From positions 1-56,042 of the forward strand of contig VFJJ01000063.1 in the NCBI GenBank assembly GCA_009886115.1: a stretch of 56,042 nucleotides of DNA. Reading direction: 5' to 3'. Of the stretch, positions 643 through 23,852 are shown piece by piece; position 1 is the first letter of the stretch; every line of letters starts with the position of its first letter. This DNA comes from Actinomycetota bacterium. Lineage in GTDB: Bacteria; Actinomycetota; Acidimicrobiia; IMCC26256; VFJJ01. The notes below the pieces were generated by a model that searched no databases, was not told the origin of the DNA, and saw nothing but the letters and a program-made list of their open reading frames with translations. Position numbers and translations under genes: made by a program.

Positions 643-653
643 GGAGCACCGAC

Positions 654-2995: not shown

Positions 2996-4663
2996 ATGTC
3001 GACCGCGCGTCCTTCCGCTCTCGGGCCGACCCACCAGCGCGACGTGGTCACCACGACCACCGACCTGGTCCAGGTCGTCCGCGACGGTGTCGCCTCACTC
3101 GAAACCGAGGCTCGACGGGTCGGACCCGTGACCGAGGGCGAATCGTCGGACGAACCGGAGTTCATGCTCTTGCTGAAGGGTGTCAGCACGCTCCTCGAAC
3201 GGGTCCCGGCGTTCGCGCTCGACGAGCGCGAACGAGCGCTGATCGGAGCCCGGATCGACGATCTGGCGCGCTGGCATGCCGGTCGGGGTCGGTCGCGCAC
3301 CCCGGACAGCTCGATCGCCGCTGCCGGGCTCGAGCCCGTCACACCCGCCGCTCCTGCGCCACCCTCGCCGAGCACTCCGGTGCTGGAACTACCCGAGGCA
3401 GGTCCGGTGCTGGAACAGCAGCCGGCAGATCCGGTGTCGGAGGAGCAGCCGGCAGGTCGGGTGCTGGCGCAGCCCGCGCCAGGTCCGGTGCTGGAGGAGC
3501 AGCCGGCACAGGCACTGCCGCAGCTGCCTGCCCCGGTCGTTCCCGAGGATCCGGTCCTCGAGCACGGGGCGGGCGAACCCCGTGCGGTCTCCGATCCTCG
3601 GGGGCCTTCGCCGCTGCGGCGCCGGATCAGCCAGTTGATGACCGTCACCGGCGTGGTGATCGTGCTGTTCGTCGGCTACCTGCTTGTCGGCAGCGACGTC
3701 AGCCATCAGCGCGACCAGCGCGTCCTCGAGGACCGTCTCCAGCACCATCTCGTGCGGGCCAGCCAACTCGCGGCGCCCGTCGAGATCTTCTTCGAGACCG
3801 ATCCGGCCACGGGCGATCCTCAGATGCCCGAGCTGATCGGCCAACCCCTCGATGTCGCCGTTGCGGCACTCGAAGGACTCGAGTTGACCGTCCAGGTCCG
3901 GGCCACCAAGGACCCCGACGTTCCCGCGGGACGGGTCGTGGGGACCGACATCGAGACCGGCGCAGCGGTGCGCTCGGGAGCCGATGTCGTCGTCGAGGTG
4001 TCGAGTGGTCCGCCGGTCGGCTCGCCGATCGCCATGCTCGAGATCGACGCGGTCGGGGTGGAGGAGGTCGTCGTCGAGGCCACCGGCGCCAGTGAGCTCA
4101 AGGATGGGCCGGGCCACTACCGCGCCAGCTCGATGCCGGGCCACGTCGGCAACGTCGTGATCGCCGGTCGCCGGAGCACCTACGGTGGCCCGTTCTCGCG
4201 AATCGGTGAGCTCGATGCGGGTGACGAGATTCGTGTGACCACGGTGGACGGGGCGTTCACGTACGTCGTCGAGGCGACGGAGGTCGTCGAACGGGGCGAT
4301 CCCGACGTGATCGGCCCGACCGATGACGATCGCCTCACGCTCGTGACCGGCCACCCCCGGTTGCGAGCGGCCGAGCGTCTCGTCGTGACCGCGATCCTCG
4401 ACGGCGAGGCCCTGCCCGAGCCGTTGGGGATCGACCCGCCGACCGACGTCGAGCAGACCGAGACCGGGCTCTTCAGCGACGTCAGGGCGTGGGGCCCGAC
4501 GCTGTTCTGGGGGCAGCTCGTCCTCGGGGCCTACCTGGGGTTGCGGCTCATGGCACGACGGTGGCGTCGGTGGTCGACCTGGTTGGTGAGCACCCCGGTG
4601 CTGCTCGTCCTGGTGCTCGTCTGGTTCGAGAGCATCCACCGCCTGTTCCCGTCGACCCTGTGA
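2996..4663 (+). CDS. PASTA-domain plus class-E-sortase-like membrane protein lacking catalytic His and Cys
   Basis: 555 residues. The N-terminal 210 residues are cytosolic, with a Pro/Glu-rich part containing PVLEEQPA-like repeats. A TM helix at about 214-232 is followed by a PASTA domain (about 276-340, MPELIGQPLDVAVAALEGLE) and a class-E-sortase-like domain (about 341-470). Two more TM helices lie at about 502-520 and 528-545. Family members usually read VVIAGHR and TLxTCHP. Here the matching stretches read VVIAGRRSTYGGPFSRI and LTLVTGHPRL, so catalytic His is Arg392 and catalytic Cys is Gly452. The downstream Arg (R461 in AAERLVV) is kept. The fold appears intact, so this is probably a non-catalytic sortase-fold protein, perhaps a binding or scaffold partner for the two anchored proteins encoded just upstream. 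GGGGAG lies nine bases before the ATG, and the gap to the previous gene is five bases. Confidence 0.8.
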   Translation: MSTARPSALGPTHQRDVVTTTTDLVQVVRDGVASLETEARRVGPVTEGESSDEPEFMLLLKGVSTLLERVPAFALDERERALIGARIDDLARWHAGRGRSRTPDSSIAAAGLEPVTPAAPAPPSPSTPVLELPEAGPVLEQQPADPVSEEQPAGRVLAQPAPGPVLEEQPAQALPQLPAPVVPEDPVLEHGAGEPRAVSDPRGPSPLRRRISQLMTVTGVVIVLFVGYLLVGSDVSHQRDQRVLEDRLQHHLVRASQLAAPVEIFFETDPATGDPQMPELIGQPLDVAVAALEGLELTVQVRATKDPDVPAGRVVGTDIETGAAVRSGADVVVEVSSGPPVGSPIAMLEIDAVGVEEVVVEATGASELKDGPGHYRASSMPGHVGNVVIAGRRSTYGGPFSRIGELDAGDEIRVTTVDGAFTYVVEATEVVERGDPDVIGPTDDDRLTLVTGHPRLRAAERLVVTAILDGEALPEPLGIDPPTDVEQTETGLFSDVRAWGPTLFWGQLVLGAYLGLRLMARRWRRWSTWLVSTPVLLVLVLVWFESIHRLFPSTL

Positions 4664-5693: not shown

Positions 5694-5872
5694 CCCTCAG
5701 ACACGCGCGTCCGAAGGTAGTCACTGTACGTCGTAACGTCGCCACAGAACAATAGAAATATCAGCCGCAACGTATGGCGAAGTTCACCCCAAGTTGTCGT
5801 AGGTGTCATGGCCGTCCCTTAGAACTGGTGGTGCGGAGATTCCGCAACATCCACCGATTTGGGGAGGGTACT

Positions 5873-7153
5873 TTGAAGCGAAGCAGGAAAGTCCTGATGC
5901 TCATGAGCCTGGGAGCGATTGCAGCTACTGCGATCATTCCCAGTGCTGGGGCGCTCCCGCCGCCCGGCAGTCCCGGATTGAACCCCGGCCTGAACGACGT
6001 CGTCGACAAGATCCAGGGTTACGGCTCCGACACCACCTACCCGCTGATGCAGCAGCTCGACGCGGCGTTCAACGGATCGCTGGGCTGCAACCAGGCTGCT
6101 CCGACGTCACCGTACGCCGGCGAGATCCAGAACACCTGTCTCCCGTTCGCGGCGCAGCCCCCGGGCGTGGTCCTGAACGAGAACTGGGACCACGACGCGG
6201 CGATCAGCTACTTCCCGCAAGGCTCGTCGGCTGGTCGCCGTCAGCTCTGCGAGCAGGACGTACCTCGGCCCGGCGGCATCGCGATCACCGACTACGCCCG
6301 TTCGTCGAGCGCCCCGAGCACGACGCCGACGTGTGGCGGCGCAGCCGGCCCGCACACGTTCCGCTTCGTGGCCTTCGCCCGTGACGCTCTCACCTGGGTG
6401 AAGTTCAACACGGTGGGTGGCGGCAGCACCCCTGTGACCAACCTCACGACGGTGCAGCTCAACGAGATCTTCGTGAACTGCGACCTCGAGGTCGGCGATG
6501 CCTTCCCCACGACATACTGGGACGAGGGAACCATCGGCGGCGCGAACCACAACCCGATCCGGGTGTGGAGCGTCCAGAGCGCCTCAGGCACCAGGGCCAC
6601 CTGGGACGGGTTCGTCGGCGGCAACAGCACGCTGTGCATCCCGGCCATCTACAAGGACGGGCTCCCGGCCAACGGCGAGCGCGTGATCCAGGAGCACAAC
6701 GCGGCACCGGTCGTCAGTGCCGTCAACGACGCTGACGCAGCCGACGAGGGCAACTCGATCTTCTACTACGGGTTCGGTCGCTACCAGGTGACCGGTGGAG
6801 AAGGCTCGATCCTCGGAAGCGTCAACGGCATCGCCCCGACCGAAGCCACCATCCAGAACGCGACCTTCCCCTTCGGTCGCTTCGTCTACAACGTGTACCG
6901 CCAGGCCGGCACCGGTCCGACGCTCGCTCCGTACGCGAACGGCTACATCGGATCGTCGGGTTGGATCTGCAAGCCTCCGGGCCAGCACGCCGAGCCCCCG
7001 GGCACGCCCGGCGTCGGCATCGAGGTCGGTGCTGCGCCGGTCGACTACGGCCAGCTGGTCCACGATGTCATCCGCTCGCAGGGCTTCATCCCCCTGCGGA
7101 CCGACATCCAGAACGTGAACCGTTGCGACTTCACCGACGTCGTGTACCCCTGA
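5873..7153 (+). CDS. Secreted PstS-like substrate-binding protein
   Basis: A TTG start at 5873 is favoured: GGGGAGGG lies just upstream, and it places a basic n-region (KRSRK) before the hydrophobic segment VLMLMSLGAIAATAII. An open frame continues upstream to 5774 but has no good start. The mature protein begins at about ALPPPGSPG. The fold looks like a PstS/PBP-like phosphate-binding protein: GYGSDTTYPLMQQL near the N terminus, SYFPQGSSAGRRQLC and AITDYARSSS where ligand-binding Ser/Asp residues normally lie, then a C-terminal lobe with several Cys. It lacks a lipobox and is longer than typical PstS (about 426 residues). No pstCAB genes accompany it, so high-affinity phosphate uptake is not demonstrated; extracellular binding or adhesion is possible. 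A hairpin at 7231-7258 probably ends the transcript. Confidence 0.75.
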   Translation: MKRSRKVLMLMSLGAIAATAIIPSAGALPPPGSPGLNPGLNDVVDKIQGYGSDTTYPLMQQLDAAFNGSLGCNQAAPTSPYAGEIQNTCLPFAAQPPGVVLNENWDHDAAISYFPQGSSAGRRQLCEQDVPRPGGIAITDYARSSSAPSTTPTCGGAAGPHTFRFVAFARDALTWVKFNTVGGGSTPVTNLTTVQLNEIFVNCDLEVGDAFPTTYWDEGTIGGANHNPIRVWSVQSASGTRATWDGFVGGNSTLCIPAIYKDGLPANGERVIQEHNAAPVVSAVNDADAADEGNSIFYYGFGRYQVTGGEGSILGSVNGIAPTEATIQNATFPFGRFVYNVYRQAGTGPTLAPYANGYIGSSGWICKPPGQHAEPPGTPGVGIEVGAAPVDYGQLVHDVIRSQGFIPLRTDIQNVNRCDFTDVVYP

Positions 7154-7339: not shown

Positions 7340-9055
7340 ATGTATACCGAGAGTTCGCATCAACGTCGTCTTCTGGCAAATCTCTCATTCCTTCGAGCGG
7401 TCAAACTCAACTCCGTGGACGCCACGGCACAGCACCCTCGTTCGTTTCCCGTATCCGAGCGTCATCTGGATGATGCTCCTTCGAGCGGCTCGGGCGGTCA
7501 CCGGCGCAGAACGCTGGACGCTCGGCTCGTCGGTCGGAACCTGACCCGGCTCGCGCTCGACATCGTCGGCGCCTCCGTCGGCGCTCTCGTCGCACGTGAT
7601 GCGGTGGGATCGGCGGTGTCGGTGGCCGAGCCCGAGCCGTGGTGGATCGCCGCCGCCGTGGTCCTGTTCGTCGGCGCCCGGTTCGCGACCGGCGCGTATC
7701 ACCGGGTGTGGACCGAGTCGCCGGGCGAGCTGATCGCCGTCTGGAAGGCCTGCGCCGCCGGGCTGGCCGCGGCCCTCGCCCTCGCCTTCGTCGCCGACTC
7801 CGACATGCCCGATCGCTGGGCGAGTGCGGCCGCCTTCACGACGGGCACCTTTGTGATGGCCCTGACGCTCCTCGAGCGCCGGACGGTGCGGTGGTTGCGC
7901 CTCCGGGGACGGATGCGCTGCCGGCTCCTGCTCGTCGGGGCGGGTGGCGACGTCGAACCGATGATCGAGATGCTGGCCGAGCATCCGGAGTGCGGCATCG
8001 ACGTCGTCGGCATCGCCGGACCCGGTGTGTCCGACCGGGCCGATCTGCTGGTGCCCTGGTTCTCGCCCCGAGCCGGTGCCGGAACCCGCCCGACGAACAG
8101 CGGGGCCGCCGACGCGCTCTCGGATGTGCCGGAGCTCGATGTCGACGGCATCTTGCTGCTGCCGGCGTCGGTGGGTGCCCCGACGGCGAACGCCTGTGCT
8201 CGAGCGGTGCGCCGCGTCGGCGGGGCGGTGCTCGTGGCCGGCCCGGTTCGGGGCGCGACCGCTTCATGCCTGCGACCGTCGACCGTGGCCCGCGAGCCGC
8301 TGTGGGACTATCGCGACGCCAGGCTCGGACCGGCGCAGCGCTTCGTCAAGCGCACCCTCGACCTGGGTCTGGGTCTCGTGCTCAGCCTCGTCGCCCTTCC
8401 CGTCATGGGGATCGTCTCGGTGGCGATCATGGTACGAGACGGTCGCCCGATCTTCTTCCGCCAGGTGAGGGTCGGGCGCGACGGCGAGCCGTTCACCATG
8501 TTCAAGTTCCGCACGATGGTGCCCGACGCCGAGCACCGGGTCATCGACCTCCGCTGCGCCAACGAGCGCACCGGACCCCTGTTCAAGCTCACCGACGACC
8601 CCCGGGTCACGCGTGTCGGGCGCTTTCTTCGGACCACCAGCCTCGATGAGCTCCCGCAGCTCATCAACGTGCTGGGCGGCGCGATGAGCCTGGTCGGGCC
8701 CCGTCCCGCCCTCCCGGCCGAGGTCGCCACCTTCGACGAGGCGCTGCTCGATCGGCACCGTGTGAAGCCCGGCATCACCGGGTTGTGGCAGGTCGAGTCA
8801 CGCGACTCCCCGTCGTTCGCCGCCTATCGCCGCCTCGACCTGCACTACGTCGAGAACTGGTCGGTGGGTCTCGACCTGGAGCTGATCGCTCGGACCATCG
8901 GGTCCGTGGCGACGCGAGGGCTCACGCTCGGGCGCGGGTCGAAGGTCGCTGAAGCGCCGCCGCCGTTCAGGGTCCTCGCTGAGGCTCCGGTACAGGTCAA
9001 CGACGGGTTCGTCGGGTTCACAACAGAGCGAGAGGAGCGCCCGTGCGCATCGTGA
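7340..9055 (+). CDS. Polyprenyl-phosphate glycosyl-1-phosphate transferase (WbaP/WcaJ type)
   Basis: Initiates lipid-linked polysaccharide assembly by moving a sugar-1-phosphate from a nucleotide sugar to undecaprenyl or decaprenyl phosphate at the membrane. The N-terminal half has several hydrophobic segments (about residues 70-170) and a soluble NAD-binding-like region (RCRLLLVGAGGDVEPM). The catalytic bacterial sugar-transferase domain starts at about residue 333 with RFVKRTLDLGLGLVLSL. It carries MFKFRTMVPDAE, TTSLDELPQLINVLGGAMSL, VGPRPALP and KPGITGLWQVE, all hallmarks of the family. Length 571 is typical of the long form. The ATG at 7340 lies 20 bases beyond the only strong SD (7313-7320), an unusually long gap; an in-frame TGA at 7319-7321 excludes an earlier start. 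The 3' end overlaps the next gene by 13 bases. Confidence 0.9.
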   Translation: MYTESSHQRRLLANLSFLRAVKLNSVDATAQHPRSFPVSERHLDDAPSSGSGGHRRRTLDARLVGRNLTRLALDIVGASVGALVARDAVGSAVSVAEPEPWWIAAAVVLFVGARFATGAYHRVWTESPGELIAVWKACAAGLAAALALAFVADSDMPDRWASAAAFTTGTFVMALTLLERRTVRWLRLRGRMRCRLLLVGAGGDVEPMIEMLAEHPECGIDVVGIAGPGVSDRADLLVPWFSPRAGAGTRPTNSGAADALSDVPELDVDGILLLPASVGAPTANACARAVRRVGGAVLVAGPVRGATASCLRPSTVAREPLWDYRDARLGPAQRFVKRTLDLGLGLVLSLVALPVMGIVSVAIMVRDGRPIFFRQVRVGRDGEPFTMFKFRTMVPDAEHRVIDLRCANERTGPLFKLTDDPRVTRVGRFLRTTSLDELPQLINVLGGAMSLVGPRPALPAEVATFDEALLDRHRVKPGITGLWQVESRDSPSFAAYRRLDLHYVENWSVGLDLELIARTIGSVATRGLTLGRGSKVAEAPPPFRVLAEAPVQVNDGFVGFTTEREERPCAS

Positions 9056-10329
9056 TGATCGGCCAGCGGGGCGTGCCGGCCACCCATGGCGGCGTCGAGC
9101 ACCACGTGGAGGAGATCGGCAGCCGCCTCGCCGACCGCGGCCACGACGTGACGGTGTTCTGCCGGACGAACTACGTCGAAGAGGGCCGCCGGCGGCATCG
9201 CGGGATGCGCATCGTGCGGGTACCCACGATCGGTACCAAGCACCTCGACGCCATCGTGCACAGCGGTCTCTCGACCGTCGCCGGTGCGCTCGCCCGGGCC
9301 GACATCTACCACTTCCACGCGCTCGGCCCCGGCCTGTTCACCCCGGTCCCCCGGCTGCTCGGGCGGGCCAAGGTGATCCAGACGATCCACGGCCTCGACC
9401 ACGAGCGCTCGAAATGGGGTGGCCTGGCTCAGCAGGTGCTCAAGACCGGCGCCGAGTTCTCGTATCGCGTGCCCCATGCCGTGGTTGCGGTCTCGCGAGC
9501 CCTCGCCGCGCACTACCGGGCGAACTCGTCGGTGCCGATCGCCTACGTGCCCAACGGCGCTCCGAGCCCGCGGCACCGGCCGCCGGGACCGGTGCTGGCC
9601 GAGCTGGGTCTCGAAGCGGGACGGTACGCGCTCTTCGTCGGGCGGCTGGTGCCCGAGAAGGCCCCCGATGCGCTGGTGCAGGCCTTCGCCCGACTCGAGA
9701 CCGACCAGAAGCTCGTGATCGTCGGGGGGAGCTCCTTCACCGACGGGTACGTGGAGTCGCTCGAACGGATGGCCGCGGCCGACCCCCGTTGCGTGATGGC
9801 CGGATGGCGTTTCGGTGAGGACCTCGACGAGCTGTACTCCAACGCCGGGCTGTTCGTGCTGCCCTCGCTGCTCGAAGGTCTGCCGCTCACGTTGCTCGAG
9901 GCCGCGTCGTTCGGGCTGCCGATCATCGCCAGCTCGATCCCCCCGCACGTCGAGGTCCTCAGGCATGCCGGCCCCGGGCGTCGTCTGGTCGAGCCCGGCG
10001 ACGTCGACGCGCTCGCGGCCGAGATCACCCAGGCGATGGCCGACCCCCGGGCCGAACGACTCGGCGCGACGGAGCTCCGGGCCGAGGTGTGCGAGCACTA
10101 CGACTGGGACCTCGTCACCGACGCCACCGAGGATCTCTACCAGCGGGTGATCGAGGGGCGGCCGCTGGGTCGGCCGGGCACGCTCTACGACAACGTGGTG
10201 CTGCGCCGACGACCCGAGACCATCGAGCTCGTCCAGCGGATCGGCGTGCCTGTCGGTGCGACGCCGATCCGGTGGTCACCCGCGTCGCCGGATCGCGATC
10301 ATCCCGCCGCGGCGAGCGCAGTGGCGTAG
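9043..10329 (+). CDS. GT4-family glycosyltransferase
   Basis: A GT-B glycosyltransferase that probably adds a sugar to the growing lipid-linked repeat unit on the cytosolic face. The N-terminal domain begins RIVMIGQRGVPATHGGVEHH, typical of the group related to rhamnosyltransferases and DUF1972 proteins. The C-terminal domain has YALFVGRLVPEKAPD for the donor site and EGLPLTLLEAASFGLPII, which contains the EX7E motif of GT4 enzymes. The GTG start at 9043 has GAGAGGAG upstream and overlaps the preceding gene, indicating translational coupling. The donor and acceptor sugars cannot be read from sequence. The 3' end overlaps the convergent glycosyltransferase gene by 31 bases. Confidence 0.9.
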   Translation: MRIVMIGQRGVPATHGGVEHHVEEIGSRLADRGHDVTVFCRTNYVEEGRRRHRGMRIVRVPTIGTKHLDAIVHSGLSTVAGALARADIYHFHALGPGLFTPVPRLLGRAKVIQTIHGLDHERSKWGGLAQQVLKTGAEFSYRVPHAVVAVSRALAAHYRANSSVPIAYVPNGAPSPRHRPPGPVLAELGLEAGRYALFVGRLVPEKAPDALVQAFARLETDQKLVIVGGSSFTDGYVESLERMAAADPRCVMAGWRFGEDLDELYSNAGLFVLPSLLEGLPLTLLEAASFGLPIIASSIPPHVEVLRHAGPGRRLVEPGDVDALAAEITQAMADPRAERLGATELRAEVCEHYDWDLVTDATEDLYQRVIEGRPLGRPGTLYDNVVLRRRPETIELVQRIGVPVGATPIRWSPASPDRDHPAAASAVA

Positions 10330-11567
10330 ATGCCGTCGAGCTCGTCGAGGTGGCGGTCACGGGCGAAGCGTCCGACCGCCACCGCTCGGGCTCGCGCACC
10401 CATGCCTCGGGCGCGCTCGGGATCCTCGAGCAGCATCGTGATGGCTCGGGCCAGTTCCTCGGGGTCGTTCGGCGGAACGAGCAGCCCGGTCGAGCCGTCC
10501 TCGACGAGGTCGGGAAGCCCTCCCAGCGTCGTGGCGATCACGGGTACGCCACAGGCGAACGCCTCGAGGACGATGATCGGCTGGTTCTCGTGCCACACGG
10601 ACGGGACCGCCACGGCCCTCGCCGATCGGATGAGGGCGTGGACCGCTGCTCGATCGAGTCGACCACGCCAGCTCACCCGTCCCGGCGCGATCCGCGCGGC
10701 CCGTTCCTCGAGCTCGGCCCGCAACGGCCCGTCACCGGCGATCACGAGACGCGCTTCGGGTCCAGCCTGGGCGATGGCGTCGATGAGGACGCCGACCCCC
10801 TTCTCGCTGGCGATCCGCCCGGCGAAGACGATCGGGCCATCGTCGGGTGTGCTCGGTCGGATGATCCCGGCCCGGAGGCCGATGTCGGTGTCGGTGTCGA
10901 TGTCGATGTCGACGAAGTGGTCGAGCACCTTGATCCGCTCGGCGGCGAAGCCGGCCGCCAGCATCCGCTCGGCCAGGAAACGACTCGGACAGATGAGGGT
11001 CGAGGCGTGACCGTACGCGCCGAGCGCCCGGTGCACCGTCGACTCAACCGCCAGCGTGAGGCTCGCGCCAAGCGATCCGTCCTTGCAGCGCATGGTGATC
11101 GCGTGGCGGAACGAGCTGCCGACGCAGCGCTCACAGATCGATCCGCCCGCGAGCAGCTGGTACGAGGGGCAGATCAGCTTGTAGTCGTGGAGGGTCATCA
11201 CGGTGGGGACTCCCGCTCGCCGGAGCGCCCACAGCACCGACGGTGAGAGCTGGTGGTACACGTTGTGGAGATGGGCGACGTCAGGTCGGAAGCGATCGAC
11301 GACAGCCCCGATGCCGTCGCTCGACGACTTCGACCACAGCATCCGTCCCGTCGCCCGGGCCTTGCCGATCGCCGAGCGCGGCGCCGGTTCGAGCTCGATG
11401 TGATCGGGGAACCAGGAGTCGTACTCGAACGGCGGGTTTTCGGGATGGTCCATCCCGAAGAACGCGATGTCATGGCCCCGGCTCGCCTGAGCATGGGCGA
11501 CGTCGAGCATGTACGCCTCGGCGCCGCCTTTTCGGTAGAGGAACTTGTTGACGTGGAGGATCCTCAT
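10299..11567 (-). CDS. GT4-family glycosyltransferase
   Basis: 422 residues, starting at the ATG at 11567 (MRILHVNKFLYRKGGAEAYM). The N-terminal GT-B domain includes DVAHLHNVYHQLSPSVL and a Cys-containing segment (CPSYQLLAGGSICERCVG) seen in GT4 enzymes of capsule and exopolysaccharide clusters. The donor domain has PIVFAGRIASEKGVGVLIDA and ENQPIIVLEAFACGVPVI, which contains the EX7E motif. A short acidic repeat (DIDIDTDTDI) near residue 215 is an insertion in a loop. It reads convergently into the other GT4 gene and is the last gene of the minus-strand sulfotransferase and Wzx-Wzy group. It probably extends the repeat unit; its sugar specificity is unknown. Confidence 0.9.
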   Translation of the reverse strand: MRILHVNKFLYRKGGAEAYMLDVAHAQASRGHDIAFFGMDHPENPPFEYDSWFPDHIELEPAPRSAIGKARATGRMLWSKSSSDGIGAVVDRFRPDVAHLHNVYHQLSPSVLWALRRAGVPTVMTLHDYKLICPSYQLLAGGSICERCVGSSFRHAITMRCKDGSLGASLTLAVESTVHRALGAYGHASTLICPSRFLAERMLAAGFAAERIKVLDHFVDIDIDTDTDIGLRAGIIRPSTPDDGPIVFAGRIASEKGVGVLIDAIAQAGPEARLVIAGDGPLRAELEERAARIAPGRVSWRGRLDRAAVHALIRSARAVAVPSVWHENQPIIVLEAFACGVPVIATTLGGLPDLVEDGSTGLLVPPNDPEELARAITMLLEDPERARGMGARARAVAVGRFARDRHLDELDGIYATALAAAG

Positions 11568-11602
11568 GGCGCGGCGGCTCCGCTGGGCTGGGAAGGACGG
11601 GC

Positions 11603-14389
11603 TCACGACGCGACGGCCTCGAGGTCGATGGTTCGCCCGTGCGCGTCGCCTTCGAGGTCTTGGAGGTCGATGACCCCGGGGCCGGCGACGGGGGCTCGGG
11701 TGGCCTCGTCGGGCGGCGGCGTCAGAGCTGATCGTGGGACGAGCGCGTTGGCACAACAGGCGAACGCGGCGAGATACCAGACCACCGCAACCTGCGACAC
11801 CACGTTGGCCGCGATCGACAGCGTCACGAACGCCGTGATGCAGCCGGCGAACGCGACGACCACGGCCCGGTCGAACGCTCGCGCCGTTCGTGTGGCCCGC
11901 AGGGCCTCGCGAGCGCCGCGAACCAGGCTGTTCATGAACCACAGGTAGCCGAACAGCCCCACGACGCCGGTCTCGACGAAGATCCGGAGGAAGTCGTTGT
12001 GCGGTGCCTTGCCGGTCACGAGCTCCTCGGCCGTGGTGTCGAGGCCGATCCCCGTCACCGGGTTGGCGTCGGCGAGCTCGAGGACGTCGCCCCAGTACTC
12101 GAAGCGCCAGACCAAAGAGTTCCCTGCGGTGCCCGAGAGGTTGCGGGTGTCCTCGAGCTCGGTGAAGCGCGCCACCGTCGACGGCACCAGCAGCGCGATG
12201 GCGATGACGCTTCCGACCAGCACCACGAGCAGACCCCGAGAACGCCGCAGGACGGCCACCACCACGATCCCGAGGAACGTGGCGATCCAAGCGCCGCGGG
12301 CATAGGAGCTCACCAGCCCCACGGCACAGGCCGCGGTGGCCGCCACCAACGCAACACGGGCGACACCCCGCACCACCGGGGCCAGCGCGATCCCGGCGAT
12401 GACGAGAAACGCGAGATACATGGCGTACGGGTTGGGGTGCAAGAAGGTGCCCCGGACCCGGTCGATCGTGTCGATCTCGACCCGGCCCCGCCTTGTCACC
12501 TGCTGATGGATGCCGACGAGGACGGGGATGAAGGCAGAGACGTAGACGGCGACCAGGACCCGTGAGACACGCCGTCGATCGGCGAGGAGACGGTCGCAGG
12601 CCGCGAACATCATGACGATGGTGAGGATGCGCAGCGCTTCGACGGCGCTCGTCGACGGGTTCACCGAGCCGAGCACGCTCACCGACGATGCGGCCACGAA
12701 CGCCACCGCCCCCTTGGTCACCGGCCCGTACCGGTGTGGGTGGCCCATGGTCTGCACGGTGAGCCAGAGCAGGGTCGCGAGGATGAGCGCGAAGCCCGTC
12801 ACCGAGGCCGGGTCGAGCTGGCCGCTGCGCTGCGAGCCGATGATGTCGAGGCTGGCCCGGACCGCGAGCGCCCCGAGCACCACCACCTCGAAGCGCACGA
12901 GGGTCACCGCCACGGCCGCCGCGGCGAGGGCGCCGAGCGCCACGCCGAGCACCACGGTCGATGACGCCCGTCCGAGCCCGTAGCCGGCCCCGGCGGTGAC
13001 GAGCGCGGCGATCACGAGCGCGCCGGTGAGCATCCCCGAGCCCGCCACCGGTGGCCTCGGAGAGGGAGCGAACGTCGGACCGCCATCCACGCCCGGATCG
13101 ACTGCGGCTCCAGCGGGCACCCGTCCGCGCGTCGCCGTCGCTGTCGCTGGCGCGGTCGCCGGATGCTCCGCCAGGGCCCGGTCGAGCTGGCGCCAGAACA
13201 GCCCGGCGCCGATGGCGTTGGCCAAGGCCAGCCCCGTGAGGGCGCCCGTCGAGCCGGCGACGGCGGCTCCGACCACCCCGCCGACCACGGTGAGGGGCAC
13301 GATCGAGATGCGGGCCCGGAACGATCGTTGCGACTCGGCGGTGGCCCGCAAGCCCACCAGGGCCCCCGATGTGGCGCCGATGCCGGCCATGAGCGCGGCC
13401 TGCGGCACCAGGACGGGCTGGGCTTCGCGCCAGCTCGCACCGAGCAGCTCGACGCCGATCGAGTCGGGGATGACCATGGCCCCGAGCCCGCACGCGAAGG
13501 CCACCAGGGCCAACGATGCCGAGAGCCGGACGGCGTAGGGACGGAGCGCGTCGGGGTCGCGGTGCCAGATCCGGACCGCCTCGGGCGTGGCCACGAGGTT
13601 GGCCCCCAGCAACAGCACCTGGAGCGGGCCGAACAGCACCTGCGCGGCGCGGATCGCTCCCAGGGCCGAGAGCCCTCCCGTGATGCCGACCGCGGTGATC
13701 GCCAGCTGGCGAGCCCCGGCCCGGGCCACGAACTCCCCGCTGTAGTGCCGTCCCAGGTCCCACGTCGAGCGCAACCACGTCGCCGCCCTGGCGGGAGCGG
13801 GCCTGATGCCCGACTGGACGATTCCGGCCACCGCCGCGACCGATGCCGCTGCACCCCAGGCGGCCGTGAACCAGAACACCGTCCGGTGCCCCGATGCGAT
13901 CACGAGCGCTACGGAGCCGCCCTGGGCCGCGGCCCAGATGGCGTCGTTGGCCACGGCCCGAGCGGGACGGCCCTGGGCGAGGAACACTTCGCGCCAGGTG
14001 TCTTGGACCAGGAGGCCCGGGAGGCTCAGCCCGAGAGCGAGCAGGGCCGCGCCGGCGTTGCCGGCGACAATCCCGCCGACGACCGCGAACGGGCCGCCCA
14101 CGACGATGCCCAGCACGAGTGCGTACCCCGTCGCCTCGGCGATGGGCCGGTCGGCGCTGCCACCCCAGCCCAGGGTGGCGCTGAAGCGGACGATCAGGGG
14201 CTCGCCCGAGGTGGCCCGGGCCAGTCCCAGCACGAGCGTGTAGGCGAGAAACGCCAGTCCGAAGGCCCCGAAGCCGTCGGCGTCGAGCTGGCGGGCCACC
14301 AGCACGGCCAGCGCGAAGTTCGTGAGGCTCGAGAGGCACTGGTCGAGGATCGTCCATGCGCCCCGCCGCGTCGCCGGGGCCGGGCTCAC
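11603..14389 (-). CDS. Fused Wzx-like flippase and Wzy/O-antigen-ligase-like protein
   Basis: One uninterrupted frame of 928 residues with two membrane domains. The GTG start at 14389 overlaps the upstream sulfotransferase stop (GTGA). Residues about 10-420 are a multi-TM MATE/PST-like polysaccharide exporter (WTILDQCLSSLTNFALAVL, RQLDADGFGAFGLAF). An Ala/Pro/Thr-rich linker of about 40 residues follows. From about residue 453 a second multi-TM domain resembles O-antigen polymerase/ligase proteins, with RGTFLHPNPYAMYLAFLVI and the diagnostic PHNDFLRIFVETGVVGLFGY near residue 795. In most Wzx/Wzy systems these are two genes. A Met at the start of the second domain (position 13033) has no good ribosome binding site, so a single polypeptide is more likely. 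Inferred role: flip the lipid-linked repeat unit and polymerise it outside. Confidence 0.85.
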   Translation of the reverse strand: MSPAPATRRGAWTILDQCLSSLTNFALAVLVARQLDADGFGAFGLAFLAYTLVLGLARATSGEPLIVRFSATLGWGGSADRPIAEATGYALVLGIVVGGPFAVVGGIVAGNAGAALLALGLSLPGLLVQDTWREVFLAQGRPARAVANDAIWAAAQGGSVALVIASGHRTVFWFTAAWGAAASVAAVAGIVQSGIRPAPARAATWLRSTWDLGRHYSGEFVARAGARQLAITAVGITGGLSALGAIRAAQVLFGPLQVLLLGANLVATPEAVRIWHRDPDALRPYAVRLSASLALVAFACGLGAMVIPDSIGVELLGASWREAQPVLVPQAALMAGIGATSGALVGLRATAESQRSFRARISIVPLTVVGGVVGAAVAGSTGALTGLALANAIGAGLFWRQLDRALAEHPATAPATATATRGRVPAGAAVDPGVDGGPTFAPSPRPPVAGSGMLTGALVIAALVTAGAGYGLGRASSTVVLGVALGALAAAAVAVTLVRFEVVVLGALAVRASLDIIGSQRSGQLDPASVTGFALILATLLWLTVQTMGHPHRYGPVTKGAVAFVAASSVSVLGSVNPSTSAVEALRILTIVMMFAACDRLLADRRRVSRVLVAVYVSAFIPVLVGIHQQVTRRGRVEIDTIDRVRGTFLHPNPYAMYLAFLVIAGIALAPVVRGVARVALVAATAACAVGLVSSYARGAWIATFLGIVVVAVLRRSRGLLVVLVGSVIAIALLVPSTVARFTELEDTRNLSGTAGNSLVWRFEYWGDVLELADANPVTGIGLDTTAEELVTGKAPHNDFLRIFVETGVVGLFGYLWFMNSLVRGAREALRATRTARAFDRAVVVAFAGCITAFVTLSIAANVVSQVAVVWYLAAFACCANALVPRSALTPPPDEATRAPVAGPGVIDLQDLEGDAHGRTIDLEAVAS

Positions 14390-15426
14390 GGCGTGCTCGC
14401 CCGGCCGACGACGCGGTTGGGGAGAGGGCCCGTGCCCGTTCGGTGGTCGATGGGTCGGGCGACGGTGCCCGCATCGATGGGTGCTTCGACGTCGCGGGTG
14501 GTGAGCGCCGGATCGTCGACCTCGTAACCGAGTCGGCGCAGGTGGACACGGAGCGACTCGTCGAGCAGCGCGCTCGCAGCGGGACCGAGGTCGCCGCGGA
14601 ACGCCGCGGTCCGGTCCGACGAGAAGCTGTGCCGGCCGAGCGCTCGCTCGAAGCCGACCGTCCAGGGTAGGCCGAGGAACTCCAGCATCCGGGCGAACGA
14701 CTCCCGCGGGGAATCGACGATGTCCTCGTAGCGCACCTCGAGCCAGCGGGCCTCGGGGATCTCGTCGCGAGCCGCGACGAAGGCGTCGAGCAGGAGCTTC
14801 CAGGCCAGGCCGGCGAGCAGCGTGTACGACCGTCCGCTCGACTCCCACTCGGCGGCCAGCGCCGGCGGGAGCGGCCCGAAGTGCCAACCCTCGGGGCCGT
14901 GATGCCCTCGCCACCAGGGCATCTGTACCCAGGAGTTGGCGACCGCCCGCCCGTCGCGCACCACATGGATGAAGCGCGCGCCCTCGAAGACCTCGTCGAG
15001 CAGGCCCACCCTGGGCCATCCCGTGAACTTGTGCAGGAGGAGATCACAGCCCTCGCGCTCGGCCACCGCTGCGAAGGAGCGGCGAAGGCGGTGGGCGATC
15101 CAGGGGGTCGCATCGCCGCGGCCGAGATCGCGTGACGGGTCGGACAGCATCGGCGAGATCTCGCGCTCGAGCAGCCGGTACCCCTCCGACGGGGCCAGGC
15201 GCACCCTGCCCTTGGTGGTCGCGCTCGGTGGCAAGCGCCGATAGAGGTCCGCCGCCAGGCGCTCGGCCCGACCACCGAGGCGGTACCGGTCCGACACGTT
15301 CGTGATGAAGGCCACGTCGCGGTGCCGGCTCAGCACCTCGTGCACCAGGGTCGAGCCGCACCGTCCGGTTCCGAGGACGAACGCCGTGCGCTGCCCGTCT
15401 TCGGGACGAGGTGAACGCCCGGTCAT
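14386..15426 (-). CDS. PAPS-dependent sulfotransferase family protein
   Basis: 346 residues. The ATG at 15426 overlaps the upstream sulfotransferase stop (ATGA), and its own stop overlaps the Wzx-Wzy start, so three genes are translationally coupled. The 5'-phosphosulfate-binding loop is visible as VLGTGRCGSTLVHEVLSRHR near residue 20, and the 3'-phosphate-binding segment as ARFIHVVRDGRAVANSW near residue 150. A C-terminal RYEDIVDSPRE element is also typical. These enzymes move sulfate from PAPS to hydroxyl or amino groups of sugars or other acceptors. The position between a flippase/polymerase and another sulfotransferase argues for sulfation of the polysaccharide repeat unit or its lipid intermediate. 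The acceptor is not determined. Confidence 0.87.
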   Translation of the reverse strand: MTGRSPRPEDGQRTAFVLGTGRCGSTLVHEVLSRHRDVAFITNVSDRYRLGGRAERLAADLYRRLPPSATTKGRVRLAPSEGYRLLEREISPMLSDPSRDLGRGDATPWIAHRLRRSFAAVAEREGCDLLLHKFTGWPRVGLLDEVFEGARFIHVVRDGRAVANSWVQMPWWRGHHGPEGWHFGPLPPALAAEWESSGRSYTLLAGLAWKLLLDAFVAARDEIPEARWLEVRYEDIVDSPRESFARMLEFLGLPWTVGFERALGRHSFSSDRTAAFRGDLGPAASALLDESLRVHLRRLGYEVDDPALTTRDVEAPIDAGTVARPIDHRTGTGPLPNRVVGRASTP

Positions 15427-16319
15427 GGATAGCCGTAGGTCGCCAGCTGCCCTGCCTGGTAGCTGTCGATGCGCTCGATCGTGTCGGGGTCGAGGCGCCG
15501 CTGCCAGTCCTCGTTGCGGTCGGGGTACGAGAGGCGGCTGAGCCGGTCTCGCCACGAGGGCATGGGGTCGAGACCACCCCAGGTCGCCACCTGTTCGAAC
15601 ACCCCGAGGGGATCCCGGGTGATCTCCTCGTAACGGACGCGCAGGACCTGCTGCGGCGGAACCCCGGCCAGGCCCTGCTCCATCGCCTGGCACTCCTCGA
15701 CCCAGTGGCGAGCCCGGAGCTCCCAGGGGTCACGTCCGAGACGGTCCCACGCCTGGGGCGTTCCGTCGTGCCACCACCACACCGGGAACGTCGGCCACCA
15801 GTCGACCTGGGCCAGCGACGCAGCGACGGCCCGGCCATCGCGGACGAGGGCCACGAAGCGGGCATCCGGGAACTCGTCGAGGAGACGGTCGACCCGGCGA
15901 TTGTGGTCGATGCGCTTGCTGATGACGACCCGGCCCCCGCTCCAGCGCTGGAGCTCGCGAAAGGTGCGCCGGACCGTGACCGCTGGCCGCCGGTCACCTG
16001 AGTCGGTCTCGTCGAGACCGAGGCCGCACCGGCGAAAGATCGGCTCGCCCTCGACCGGGGACGGAAACGCCCGTTCGAGCAGCCCTCGGCTGCGACCGTA
16101 GGAGTAGGCGTTGGAGTCGGGACCGAACCAGGCTGCGAGTTGCCGGTCAGGGGCAAATCGGATACCGCGATGGATGATCGCAACCGGTGCAAGCCCGGGA
16201 AAGCGACGAACCCAATTCGAGATGTATGCGGCACCCGGGTGCAGGCAGAGAACCTTGTAGAGCAGGCTCGTGCCCGAACGCGGCGCACCCAGGACGAACA
16301 GCGGTGTCTGCCGGCTCAT
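15423..16319 (-). CDS. PAPS-dependent sulfotransferase family protein
   Basis: 298 residues starting at the ATG at 16319 (MSRQTPLFVLGAPRSGTSLL). The PAPS 5'-binding loop is LGAPRSGTSLLYKVLCLHPG and the 3'-phosphate loop is ARFVALVRDGRAVAASL, with RYEEITRDPLG further on. It is first in a minus-strand operon (two sulfotransferases, Wzx-Wzy fusion, GT4), with overlapping or close starts throughout. It is divergent from the chain-length gene at 16551. It is only distantly similar to the next sulfotransferase, so the two probably act on different positions or sugars. Acceptor unknown. Confidence 0.87.
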   Translation of the reverse strand: MSRQTPLFVLGAPRSGTSLLYKVLCLHPGAAYISNWVRRFPGLAPVAIIHRGIRFAPDRQLAAWFGPDSNAYSYGRSRGLLERAFPSPVEGEPIFRRCGLGLDETDSGDRRPAVTVRRTFRELQRWSGGRVVISKRIDHNRRVDRLLDEFPDARFVALVRDGRAVAASLAQVDWWPTFPVWWWHDGTPQAWDRLGRDPWELRARHWVEECQAMEQGLAGVPPQQVLRVRYEEITRDPLGVFEQVATWGGLDPMPSWRDRLSRLSYPDRNEDWQRRLDPDTIERIDSYQAGQLATYGYP

Positions 16320-16550
16320 GACACCGCTCGCACGTCGCTCAACCTGGTCAACGTGGTCTTTCTTACGTTGGTCATGGCCCCCTGCGCTGGCCTCAGGCGC
16401 CGCTGCACGGCACGAACGTAGCCACAGACGCCGGGCCGGAGGCACTCGGTGCTCAGACGTTCATGGAGCATCCAGCTGGTGTTCGGGCGTTGTTCATGCA
16501 ACGGTTCAGCGCCCTTCCTATCGTCGAATGGTCCCGCATCAGGAGGTGTC
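16320..16550. promoter_or_regulatory. Divergent intergenic region of the polysaccharide locus
   Basis: This 231-bp stretch separates the minus-strand sulfotransferase operon from the plus-strand chain-length gene and must carry promoters for both. I see no convincing -35/-10 pair or strong palindrome. AGGAGGTG at 16541-16548 is the ribosome binding site of the plus-strand gene. Confidence 0.4.
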
Positions 16551-18104
16551 GTGGAGATCTGGAGCCTGGTGCGCCGCAGACCGATGGTGGTCGCGCTGGC
16601 CCTCGTGCTCGCCCTGGTCGGGGGAGCAGCGGCATACCTGAGCGCCTCGTCGCGCCCGGAGTCGGTGCGCATCAGCGTCACCGTCCCCGTCCCCGGCGCC
16701 GAGGCCCAGACCTTGGGCAGCGTGGCCCAGGCCGTGGCCAGCTTCCAAGCCACCGTCACCTCCCCGCTGGTGATCCCCGGCGTCGTGACCGACACCGGCG
16801 TGCCGCAGGAGCGGTTGCAACGGGGCCTCTCCACCCGTCAGATCGGCGGGGCCGCGATCGTGCAGATCTCGTGGACGTCGCTGTCGGACGAGTCCGATCC
16901 GGCGATTCTCGAGTCGGTGAGTCGTCGGGCGCTCGAGTCGGCCTTCGCTCCGCAGCTGCGCATCGCGCGCAACGAGCTCGAGATGGCCGCCACCCGGGCG
17001 TTGGCGGCCACGGACGCGTTGAACGAGTTGTTCGACGAGACGGCCGTCGACCTGCCTCGGCAGGAGTACGAGGCCGCGGTGGCAGACGCAGCAGCACTGC
17101 GGGCGCTCATCGAGCGGACCGAGGTGAGCGGCGAGGGCGCGGTCATCGGTCTCGACGGCTCGACCGTCGACTACCTCGAGCCCATGCGGAACCGCTTGAT
17201 CGAGGCCCAGGCGCGAGTCGACGAGCTGGCTCCGATCCTGGCCCGCCATGAGGAGCTGTTCGACGATCGTGACTCGGCTGCTGCGGTGGCCGACGAGCGC
17301 CAGGCGGTCGTCGACGACCTCGAGGCGCGGCTCGATGCCGCGCAGGCTCAGGTCACCTCGGTCACCGCGCCGGTCGCGGTCTCGAACCGGGGCTTCCTCG
17401 TGATGCGCAGCGTCGGTGGCGCGCTCATCGGTCTGGCGTTCGGGGCCGTGGTGTTCGTGTCGTCAGGTCGGCGCCGTCGCCCGACGCCGGTGCTCATGAC
17501 CGATTCGACGGGTGTGGTCGACGACGCGGCGGCGGAGGAAGGACCTGCCGGGCTCGAACCGGCCAACGAGTCCGCTCCCGCTGGTCGGGATCTCAGGACG
17601 GTCGTGTTCCTGCCGACGCCGCCCCTGCCCGAGCTGGTGCCCGTGGTCGCCCTCGACGAAGACGACCGTCCGCTCCCCATGGTCATCGACCTCACGACCC
17701 ATCGCGTGTCGGCGACCGCGCAATGGGCCACCGACGGGGCCAACGGCACTGCTCGGAGGACCACGAACGGCACGAACGGCACCAACGGCACGAACGGCAC
17801 GAACGGCACCTACGGCACGAACGGTGCGGCTCACCGGGCCACGAACGGCACGAACGGTGCGGCTCACCGGGCCACCAACGGCACGAACGGTGCGGCTCAC
17901 CGGGCCACCAACGGCTCCCAGGGGTTCACAGCTGCTGACGGACCGCGTCCTGGTGACGCCGTGCCGGCGGCCGGTTCCGCATCCCGCCCCGCCGCCGAGC
18001 GGCCCGGCGACGTCGCCGATCTCGACGACGAGACGCAGGCGCTGGCCAACCTGGTCGCCTCCCTGGTGCGCCGCAGCGGAGGACCCCCCGATGGGCGCGA
18101 CTGA
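16551..18104 (+). CDS. Wzz/YveK-like polysaccharide chain-length determinant with Asn-Gly-Thr repeat tail
   Basis: 517 residues from the GTG at 16551, which has AGGAGG four bases upstream. TM1 spans about residues 12-32 (VVALALVLALVGGAAAYL) and TM2 about 280-305 (GGALIGLAFGAVVFVSS). The extracytoplasmic loop between them is long, Ala/Glu/Asp-rich and likely helical. This two-TM layout is that of polysaccharide copolymerases that set chain length. No Walker A tyrosine-kinase domain follows. Instead the C-terminal tail (about 210 residues, predicted cytosolic) ends in a low-complexity region of Asn-Gly-Thr triplets and three copies of an 11-residue unit AAHRATNGTNG. The function of the tail is unknown. 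The 3' end overlaps the following sulfotransferase gene by 14 bases. Confidence 0.8.
   Translation: MEIWSLVRRRPMVVALALVLALVGGAAAYLSASSRPESVRISVTVPVPGAEAQTLGSVAQAVASFQATVTSPLVIPGVVTDTGVPQERLQRGLSTRQIGGAAIVQISWTSLSDESDPAILESVSRRALESAFAPQLRIARNELEMAATRALAATDALNELFDETAVDLPRQEYEAAVADAAALRALIERTEVSGEGAVIGLDGSTVDYLEPMRNRLIEAQARVDELAPILARHEELFDDRDSAAAVADERQAVVDDLEARLDAAQAQVTSVTAPVAVSNRGFLVMRSVGGALIGLAFGAVVFVSSGRRRRPTPVLMTDSTGVVDDAAAEEGPAGLEPANESAPAGRDLRTVVFLPTPPLPELVPVVALDEDDRPLPMVIDLTTHRVSATAQWATDGANGTARRTTNGTNGTNGTNGTNGTYGTNGAAHRATNGTNGAAHRATNGTNGAAHRATNGSQGFTAADGPRPGDAVPAAGSASRPAAERPGDVADLDDETQALANLVASLVRRSGGPPDGRD
17763..17914 (+). repeat. Tandem repeats encoding NGT triplets and AAHRATNGTNG units
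   Basis: A nonanucleotide core (ACGAACGGC with ACC variants) repeats several times. Three copies of a 33-nt unit containing GCGGCTCACCGGGCCAC then follow. All variation keeps frame. Silent-site identity suggests recent expansion by slippage. Confidence 0.85.
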
Positions 18105-20037
18105 CGTCGAGTCCAACCAGGGGCGCGATCTCGCTCACGGATCGTCGCCCAGCGCGATGGTTCGACCCTCGGTGGCATCGGCGAAGCCGGCTCCGGGCCC
18201 CCTGCAGGGCAACACCACCGTGGTGGCGATCGTCGGTGCCGGCCGCAGCGGCAGCACGCTGCTCGGTGCCCTGCTGGGTCAGAGCCCCGGCGTGTTCAAC
18301 GCCGGCGAGGTTCGCTACCTCTGGGACCGGGGCTTCGTCGAGCGGCGCCTGTGCGGCTGCGGCGAACCCGTTCCCCGATGTCCCGTCTGGTCGAGCGTGG
18401 CTGAGCAGGTCGGGACGCCCGTGCTGGAACGGATGCGCGATCTCCAGCGTCGGTACGGCCGGATCCGGCACGTTCCGATCGCGCTGGCTGGGCAGATGCT
18501 GCCGTCGATCATCGAACGGCGTGTCGGACAGGATCTCGAAGCTCTCGGTGCCCTGTACACGAGCATCGCCGCCGCCTCGGGCGCTCGGGTCATCGTCGAC
18601 TCCTCCAAGCTCCCGCTGTACACGCAGAGCCTCCGGCATGCTCCCGGCATCGACGTCAAGGTCCTCCATCTGGTCCGAGACTCACGAGCGACGGCGTTCT
18701 CGTGGCAACGCAAGAAGGCACTGACCGACGGCGCCCCCCGGGAGTTCAAGGAGACGATGTCGCCGGTGCGCAGTGCTGCGTTGTGGACGATCTGGAATTC
18801 GTTGTGCGACGGATTGTTCGCTACGGGGCCCGACTTCCGGCGCGTGCGCTACGAAGACCTCGTCGAGCATCCGTGGGCGACCCTGGCAGCGCTGCACCGC
18901 TGGATCGGGGTCCCGATGGATGACAGGATCTTCGTGGGCCAGCACCGGGTCGTACTCGGGGCAACGCACACCGTCGCCGGCAACGCCGACAGGATGCGGA
19001 CGGGCACCGTGGCGATACGCCCCGACGACGAATGGCGTCACGCCCAGACCGACGAGGTTCGCCGCACGGTCACCGCCATCAGCTGGCCGATGCTGGTTCG
19101 TCACGGCTATCCGATCCTCGACCCGATCGGGCGGACCTCGCTACACCTGCGCTTCCTGCGGATGCGCGGGCTCCCGGCGTTTCTCGAGGAGAAGCGCTTG
19201 AGTCCGCGTGCGTTGGCGTCGGGAACGGTCGTGGGTCTGCGCCGACGCGCCGAGCGCGGCGAGCCGGGGTCGACCGTTCCGCTGTGGCTCGTCGGTGCGC
19301 AACGCTCGGGCACGAACATGCTCGTCAACGCGTTCCGCTGCGCGCCCGAGGTCGAGGTGCGCAACGAGACCGACCGGGCCCTGTTCCGAGACTACGAGCT
19401 GCGAACGGACCGGGTGGCTGCCGCGGTGTCGGCATGTCGCAGCCCGGTGATGCTGGTCAAGGCGCTGTGCGACTCGCATCGCGCCCGATGGATGCTCGAT
19501 CTGCCCGGCACGACCCGGGTGCCCCGCATGATGTGGATGTTCCGCGGTGTCGATGCCCGAGCCCAATCGGCCGTCACCCGCTTCGGCCACGCCAACCAGT
19601 ACGCGCTCCGAGCGATCGTGTCCGGGAACGGCGATCATCTCTGGCAGGCCGGTGGCTTGTCGAGTGCCAATCGGCTGCTGCTCGAGCAGGTCGATGCCGA
19701 GCACCTCGACCCGCTCTCGGCGTCGGCGTTGTTCTGGTACCTGCGCAACAGCTTGTACTTCGAGCTCGGGATCGATCAGCGTACCGACGTCGTGGTCGTG
19801 TCGTACCAGCGCCTCGTCGAAGACCCGATCGGTGAGTTGGCATGGATCACCCGATTCGCCGGCATTCCCCTCCGGCCTTCGATGGCTCGCCATGTCGAGC
19901 GAGGTCGGGGCGGCGACACCGGCCCGGCAGTGATCGCGCCTCGTATCCGCGAGCTCTGCGAAGCGATGGATGCCCGGTTGACGGCGGTCTCCGCCCACCA
20001 TCGACGTCTGCACCTGCAGCCAACCATCGTGGCCTGA
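18091..20037 (+). CDS. Double-domain sulfotransferase
   Basis: 648 residues, ATG at 18091 with GGAGGA seven bases upstream, overlapping the chain-length gene. Two sulfotransferase-like domains are fused. Domain 1 has the PAPS loop VAIVGAGRSGSTLLGALLGQ (about residue 45), a Cys-rich insertion (CGCGEPVPRCPVW), and the 3'-phosphate segment VKVLHLVRDSRATAFSW (about 190). Domain 2 has LWLVGAQRSGTNMLVNAFRC (about 398) and MMWMFRGVDARAQS (about 480), where the usual RDGRA-type segment is altered to RGVDA. Domain 1 resembles actinobacterial single-domain sulfotransferases. Domain 2 is more diverged and may be weakly active or structural. With the two sulfotransferases on the other strand, this makes four such domains in the locus. 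The acceptor is probably the nascent polysaccharide. Confidence 0.82.
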   Translation: MGATDVESNQGRDLAHGSSPSAMVRPSVASAKPAPGPLQGNTTVVAIVGAGRSGSTLLGALLGQSPGVFNAGEVRYLWDRGFVERRLCGCGEPVPRCPVWSSVAEQVGTPVLERMRDLQRRYGRIRHVPIALAGQMLPSIIERRVGQDLEALGALYTSIAAASGARVIVDSSKLPLYTQSLRHAPGIDVKVLHLVRDSRATAFSWQRKKALTDGAPREFKETMSPVRSAALWTIWNSLCDGLFATGPDFRRVRYEDLVEHPWATLAALHRWIGVPMDDRIFVGQHRVVLGATHTVAGNADRMRTGTVAIRPDDEWRHAQTDEVRRTVTAISWPMLVRHGYPILDPIGRTSLHLRFLRMRGLPAFLEEKRLSPRALASGTVVGLRRRAERGEPGSTVPLWLVGAQRSGTNMLVNAFRCAPEVEVRNETDRALFRDYELRTDRVAAAVSACRSPVMLVKALCDSHRARWMLDLPGTTRVPRMMWMFRGVDARAQSAVTRFGHANQYALRAIVSGNGDHLWQAGGLSSANRLLLEQVDAEHLDPLSASALFWYLRNSLYFELGIDQRTDVVVVSYQRLVEDPIGELAWITRFAGIPLRPSMARHVERGRGGDTGPAVIAPRIRELCEAMDARLTAVSAHHRRLHLQPTIVA

Positions 20038-23677: not shown

Positions 23678-23757
23678 CAAGGGCTTCACCAGGCAGGACC
23701 GGCTCAGGGTGAGCGATACGCCGCCAGGAGCTGAGAGCAGTTCCCCCCACCGGCAAC

Positions 23758-23797
23758 GTGGTGCCCGCCCTCTCCCGCCCCCCGGGGCGGGCACCAC
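23758..23797 (+). other. Strong GC-rich stem-loop in the leader of the NHL gene
   Basis: Arms GTGGTGCCCGCCC (23758-23770) and GGGCGGGCACCAC (23785-23797) are a perfect 13-bp inverted repeat with a 14-nt loop. No T-run follows. It lies 144 bases after the DUF839 stop and 55 bases before the NHL gene start. It could be a terminator, an mRNA-stabilising hairpin or a protein-binding palindrome. Confidence 0.65.
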
Positions 23798-23852
23798 AGC
23801 CCGGACCGCCGCAGCACACCGTTTGCGGCTCGCGCCCCCCAGGAGCACACCA

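Follow-up and report, generated by a model that had tools for sequence, protein, structure and literature searches.

A 56,042-nucleotide stretch of an acidimicrobial actinobacterium (GCA_009886115.1, contig VFJJ01000063.1; hereafter the window) carries at positions 7340–20037 a locus that probably (about 0.8) makes a sulfated surface polysaccharide of the Wzx/Wzy type, with several sulfates on each short repeat. The locus lies on contig C127 of a genome of 5.45 Mb in 224 contigs. An earlier reading, made from the letters of the stretch without database searches (the sequence-only reading), had listed within 13 kb a priming polyprenyl glycosyl-1-phosphate transferase (PGT), two GT4 glycosyltransferases (GT4a and GT4b), a flippase-polymerase fusion, a chain-length protein and four sulfotransferase domains; each was recovered in its place (Table 1), and the start/stop couplings it had described (ATGA at 15423–15426, GTGA at 14386–14389 and overlaps at 9043–9055 and 18091–18104) are exact. 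The genes are arranged as two plus-strand blocks and one minus-strand block and not as a single operon, with the GT4a and GT4b genes convergent and overlapping by their tails at 10299–10329.

The four sulfotransferase domains (ST1–ST4) are encoded by three genes, and three of them belong to PF13469 and one to PF00685, all scoring above the profile cut-offs. In a tree of 74 cluster sequences (subsampled, 15 or fewer per family) plus five controls from the organism's own genome, the ST1, ST2, ST3 and ST4 clades had support values of 0.988, 0.998, 1.0 and 0.999, a further clade (STx) had 0.982 and the controls had 1.0; tree members were pre-assigned by their best model, which favours clean groups. 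Judged by sequence, ST1–ST4 are distinct orthologous groups, and STx is a fifth group present in relatives. The ST2 family conserves a GTGRCGST loop and a VRDGRAVANS motif, and the window copies of ST1, ST2 and ST3 keep 67 of 69, 64 of 68 and 55 of 58 family-conserved columns, respectively. The window copy of ST4 keeps the GAQRSGTN phosphate loop but departs from its family at 38 of 114 conserved columns, so its residues make it the least certain of the four to be active. We take the sulfotransferase motifs that are kept to be the 5'-PSB loop and the 3'-phosphate-binding motif. In relatives, ST1 is paired with ST2, and ST3 and ST4 are mostly separate genes; an ST3-ST4 fusion is also found in three Dormibacterota loci.

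The Wzx-Wzy protein consists of a flippase part (residues ∼1–412), a Pro/Ala-rich linker and a polymerase/ligase part (residues ∼444–928). The N-terminal half has no match in Pfam, and it was modelled alone, with eleven homologues. The resulting model (predicted local distance difference test score, pLDDT, 87.3; predicted template modelling score, pTM, 0.85) matched as the top PDB entry the lipid III flippase WzxE (9g9p; E = 1.3e-7, TM-scores of 0.69/0.72), with MATE-family transporters and MurJ next in rank. Because the model matches both WzxE and MurJ where Pfam is silent, the N-terminal half is, by its predicted fold, a WzxE/MurJ-like flippase of the MOP superfamily. The C-terminal half contains Wzy_C, a domain common to polymerases and ligases. 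Among the loci examined, the fused copy occurs in the window only, in a single assembly, and a scan of genome contigs with the fused protein as single query gave no match. The fusion might be an assembly or sequencing artefact that joined two ordinary genes lying head to tail, an explanation that we consider somewhat unlikely and that would leave the interpretation of the locus unaffected. The third-position GC content dips to 0.75 in the linker, where internal starts are possible, and 69% of arbitrary 35-codon stretches in the window are free of stops, so a stop could have been lost through an assembly error; on the other hand, a single 928-codon open frame without a stop is directly observed, the Wzx and Wzy halves each score fully, and the codon pattern is normal on both sides of the linker.

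The product of the gene at the start of the second plus-strand block had no match at all in a Pfam scan, in which no kinase domain was recognised. The model of this protein (pLDDT 67) is ordered in its coiled-coil part, and its best PDB matches, all with low TM-scores, are Wzc, FepE, KpsE and WzzE. From the resemblance of the model to Wzc and FepE, the protein is a predicted Wzz-type polysaccharide co-polymerase, and its gene recurs together with the locus in relatives. The start was set at GTG 16551 and not at 16449, based on an AGGAGG just upstream of 16551. A long TNG-repeat tail (window positions 17500–18000) is also part of the protein, and there the model is of low confidence.

3'-Phosphoadenosine-5'-phosphosulfate (PAPS) is cytoplasmic. 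Genes for cysD (453 bits, cut-off 396.6), cysN (585 bits, cut-off 336.1) and cysC (215 bits, cut-off 138.7) are located side by side on contig C169 of the same genome. As all three are over their curated cut-offs, a PAPS supply is possible, and on the strength of its gene content the organism can make PAPS; the idea of an organism without PAPS was rejected on the same grounds. That contig also carries a CysQ-like gene, which at 94 bits (below the cut-off of 228.8) is suggestive only. As a separate observation, CysN homologues adjoin a sulfotransferase cluster in metagenome-assembled genomes (MAGs) of Dermatophilaceae (L178) and Thiomicrorhabdus (L152).

The same gene set is found in relatives. 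In G040, a genome of the same order and another family, PGT, Wzy, GT4b, GT4a (57% identical to the window copy), Wzz, STx, Wzx, ST2-ST1 and ST3 lie in a single stretch. The hidden Markov models of the families were seeded from the window and G040, i.e. chosen by us, and the genes of relatives come from a home-made caller based on codon-position GC content and are approximate. A scan of named genomes with a ten-row ST2 alignment gave 233 relatives; the best 80 entered the analysis, with up to 10 kb examined on each side of ST2, many contigs being shorter. These 80 loci are not independent, as two species occur twice and some records are genomes also present in our order, class and phylum samples, which themselves overlap. 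Among the best 80 of 233, the carriers include many Micromonosporaceae and Streptosporangiaceae as well as Actinomadura, Nocardioides, Nostocoides/Tetrasphaera and MAGs of Acidimicrobiia and Dormibacterota, along with some Gammaproteobacteria, a Rubrivivax and a few MAGs that bear the label Chloroflexi, Armatimonadetes or Gemmatimonadetes. Near ST2, 54 of the 80 loci had one or more further sulfotransferase families of the cluster, 37 had two or more and 24 had three or more. At least one of PGT, Wzx, Wzy and Wzz was present in 58 of the 80 and at least two in 38, with Wzx, Wzy and Wzz all three in 26 and Wzz, counted alone, in 39. For comparison, 27 loci of unrelated PF13469 sulfotransferases were analyzed with the same models: the first 20 rows outside the organism's own genome in a PF13469 search of order relatives (with a few further rows of the same contigs passed over; four rows of this ranking, namely G020:C195, the second row of G003:C89 and the G000 rows, were not taken as regions of their own) and seven own-genome loci. 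Wzx, Wzy or Wzz was found in none of the 27, and the weak matches there were one PGT (49 bits) and one locus with GT4b. Because the gene set recurs in relatives and is absent from the 27 control loci, its grouping is more than chance. The sequence-only reading had linked its proposal to PAPS synthesis and to the co-occurrence of these genes, and both were borne out: cysD, cysN and cysC stand together, and orthologous sulfotransferases adjoin Wzx/Wzy machinery in many genomes, with two of the families matching WpsB and WpsH of a published cluster discussed below.

Several observations weigh against a sulfated Wzx/Wzy-type polysaccharide. ST2 is patchy, with a clear orthologue in two genomes of 58 in the order, both of them seeds; orthologues were found in 8 of 395 genomes of the class (E ≤ 1e-20, seeds included) and in 13 of 396 of the phylum, the window's genome included. 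Ten of the 80 ST2 loci contain neither the machinery nor a GT4 over thresholds (five of these stretches are at most 12.3 kb long and five exceed 20 kb). STx has no match in the window and is present in both G040 and the published cluster, no nucleotide-sugar genes were recognised adjoining the locus, and the Wzy_C domain takes in O-antigen ligases too. The last point bears on an explanation that we find quite unlikely, in which the Wzy_C half would be a ligase attaching a short, sulfated glycan to a surface protein or lipid, possibly involving the sortase-linked neighbours, and the product would be a sulfated glycolipid or a protein-linked glycan. Sortase and surface-protein (P639) genes do flank the locus, in the window and in relatives, and the C-terminal half scores 39.9 bits with PEP_O_lig_1 and 22.7 bits with TfpM in NCBIfam, all far below cut-off. 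However, a chain-length co-polymerase is kept with the locus at the frequency given above, and many Wzx/Wzy/Wzz loci have no sortase group within the examined stretch. The sequence-only reading had left the product as a polysaccharide or glycolipid sulfated at several positions; the second part of this proposal is strengthened by the four distinct, co-inherited sulfotransferase groups, and sequence does not distinguish between a polymer and a ligated glycan. Far less probable is that an ordinary polysaccharide locus simply has the sulfotransferases as neighbours, their target being a lipid, a small molecule or protein tyrosine. PF13469 is common in the order, where 18 of 21 genomes contain it, and the solved structures closest in sequence are protein-tyrosine and polyketide sulfotransferases, which match weakly. 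Nevertheless, the same sulfotransferase families stand with the same machinery in distant taxa, Sinorhizobium included, and the unrelated PF13469 genes at the control loci have no such neighbours.

Among known systems, the wps-1 cluster of Actinoplanes missouriensis (AMIS_7280–7380) is described as a predicted sulfated exopolysaccharide cluster (PMC13390465, 2026), and the same report states that every gene of the cluster except wpsD is required for sporangia to form normally, WpsB and WpsH included. Similar to the window, wps-1 combines Wzx/Wzy/Wzz with sulfotransferases. In genome G813, which we took as A. missouriensis from position and gene order (the other wps-1 genes were recognised by eye), ST3 (320 bits), Wzx (236 bits), STx (292 bits) and an adenosine-5'-phosphosulfate (APS) kinase gene (143 bits) follow in this order, and WpsB is thereby the ST3 homologue and WpsH the homologue of STx, the family missing from the window. 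The wps-1 cluster adjoins a gene for sulfate adenylyltransferase/APS kinase, whereas the window locus has no such neighbour and cysDNC is on another contig. In wps-1 there are two sulfotransferases, transferases of the GT2 and GT26 families, and genes for GH26 and methyltransferases; the window instead encodes four sulfotransferase domains, each from a different group, GT4 enzymes and the Wzx-Wzy fusion. These sequence comparisons support the view that the window locus is an unusually sulfotransferase-rich form of a Wzx/Wzy sulfated-polysaccharide cluster that is conserved among actinobacteria. An STx homologue was found at E ≤ 1e-15 in 60 of 60 genomes searched from the genus of an Actinoplanes locus, and Actinoplanes sp. 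NBRC 103695 has a wps-1-type cluster (L239) in addition to a multi-sulfotransferase cluster of the window type (L171 with L241). On the Sinorhizobium replicons pNGR234b (L250) and pSymB (L251), homologues of ST3 and STx share an exopolysaccharide-like cluster with GT4-, PGT- and Wzy-like genes, to which NGR234 adds a Wzx-like gene.

The xss cluster for synechan of Synechocystis PCC 6803 also contains Wzx/Wzy and sulfotransferases, and the composition and sulfate of its product have been measured (PMC8205485); it has two sulfotransferases and eight glycosyltransferases, in contrast to four sulfotransferase domains and two GT4s in the window. According to that study, the sulfates of synechan correspond roughly in number to the sulfotransferases (two and two) and the sugars to the transferases (eight and eight). 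No homology with the synechan sulfotransferases emerged, Synechocystis being absent from the genus tallies of two plasmid tblastn searches, one of which listed 15 of its 83 rows. Sulfated surface polysaccharides are likewise described as capsules of Vibrio KMM 8419 (PMC11641403) and Cobetia KMM 1449 (PMC11766843) and for KpsS of Mesorhizobium loti (PMC11625862), but in Gram-negative hosts, and the likeness to the window is one of described products. A putative sulfated glycosaminoglycan cluster of Pontiella has a sulfotransferase amid glycosyltransferases, and a sulfated exopolymer was detected there; however, it belongs to another phylum and has one sulfotransferase, and Wzx is not mentioned in the text of the paper (PMC7356697). 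Apart from PMC13390465, our literature search for actinobacterial or acidimicrobial sulfated-polysaccharide gene clusters found none.

In the order of steps that we infer for the window locus, PGT would load a sugar-1-phosphate onto a polyprenyl carrier, and the two GT4 enzymes would extend the carrier-linked sugar, giving a trisaccharide if no further transferase acts. ST1–ST4, presumably cytoplasmic and PAPS-dependent, would each modify a particular position on the lipid-linked repeat before export. The Wzx half would then flip the repeat, the Wzy half would polymerise it and the Wzz-type protein would set the chain length. By analogy with the arithmetic of synechan, the predicted repeat would consist of three sugars and bear as many as four sulfates.

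A phosphate-sparing role was considered as well, in which the locus would make an anionic wall polymer, built of a short repeat with several sulfates, that replaces phosphate-rich polymers under phosphate scarcity in the manner of teichuronic acid in Bacillus; this we judge unlikely. Counted in its favour are the upstream PstS-like surface protein, sortase and PstS-family binding protein (PBP) and, downstream, where an M23 peptidase is also encoded, a PhoX-family protein; PhoX is presumably the same family as DUF839. A secreted DUF839 phosphatase appears in the published Pho regulon list of Planobispora rosea (PMC8269224). The pst permease genes adjoin the locus in relatives from Planotetraspora, Acrocarpospora, Sphaerisporangium and Actinomadura and in two Acidimicrobiia (in all, 10 of the 80 named loci, together with G040) and in 0 of the 27 controls, and PBP is present in 11 of the 80. 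For repeat scans we used what we take to be the PHO-box unit. A four-unit GTTCA array with an 11-nt period at 16459–16496, between ST1 and wzz, occurred in 0 of 40 Markov-sampled copies of the window, but it was spotted after a looser two-unit scan that was at chance level (27 sites versus 21.75 expected). A scan with GTTCACC, a longer unit, gave significant sites in the pst operon of the organism itself (L249 9216–9253, a perfect pair) and at the wzz start of G040 (L016 12973–12999), with 0/100 for each. Against the idea, the window site is not significant with this longer unit, and the Planotetraspora group has no clear box. The phosphate link of the locus is a lead only. Separately, both ends of a small pst contig (L248, G000:C195, 5605 bases) lie within seemingly the same PstS-like gene, which suggests a repeat, a tandem copy or a circular piece.

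The features of the locus and its possible accessory genes are listed in Table 1. Further downstream, positions 23709–30377 encode a 2222-aa protein containing numerous NHL repeats, adjoined by genes for proteins with Calx-beta and Ig domains.

Table 1. Coordinates and supporting matches of the locus genes and their upstream neighbours (positions in the window)
Feature	Position	Strand	Evidence and remarks
Priming polyprenyl glycosyl-1-phosphate transferase (PGT)	7340–9055	+	TIGR03025 332.5 bits (cut-off 295.55); PF02397 E 6e-63
GT4 glycosyltransferase GT4a	9043–10329	+	PF00534/PF13692; overlaps PGT gene 9043–9055
GT4 glycosyltransferase GT4b	10299–11567	-	PF00534 E 2e-37; start at 11567
Wzx-Wzy fusion, 928 aa	11603–14389	-	C-terminal half Wzy_C E 2e-20; N-terminal half by structure model
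Sulfotransferase ST2	14386–15426	-	PF13469 84.5 bits
Sulfotransferase ST1	15423–16319	-	PF13469 85.2 bits; ATG 16317–16319
Divergent intergenic region ST1/wzz, 231 bases	16320–16550	none	GTTCA-type repeats 16459–16496
Predicted Wzz-type polysaccharide co-polymerase	16551–18104	+	No Pfam match; AlphaFold model
Double sulfotransferase ST3-ST4	18091–20037	+	PF13469 residues 45–278; PF00685 residues 398–597
Surface protein P639, neocarzinostatin-like and PstS-like parts, possible accessory	639–2990	+	PF00960; TIGR00975 61 bits, below cut-off
Sortase with PASTA domain, possible accessory	2996–4663	+	PF04203 E 6e-26
PstS-family binding protein PBP, possible accessory	5774–7153	+	PF12849 E 2e-13

Sulfated polysaccharides of bacteria have been held to be essentially cyanobacterial (PMC8205485, PMC13390465). 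The gene set described here is found in numerous actinobacteria, yet almost unpublished, and the association of four to five sulfotransferases with Wzx/Wzy across this group would point to a class of densely sulfated, glycosaminoglycan-like polymers. The set would supply marker genes, and its carriers include culturable members of Micromonospora, Planotetraspora and Actinoplanes. In granular sludge, few sulfotransferase matches have been reported to account for the sulfated extracellular polymers, and the reference enzymes may be the wrong ones (PMC10483923); the sulfotransferase families of this locus offer new references for that setting, and a Nostocoides genome and a Tetrasphaera genome are among their carriers.

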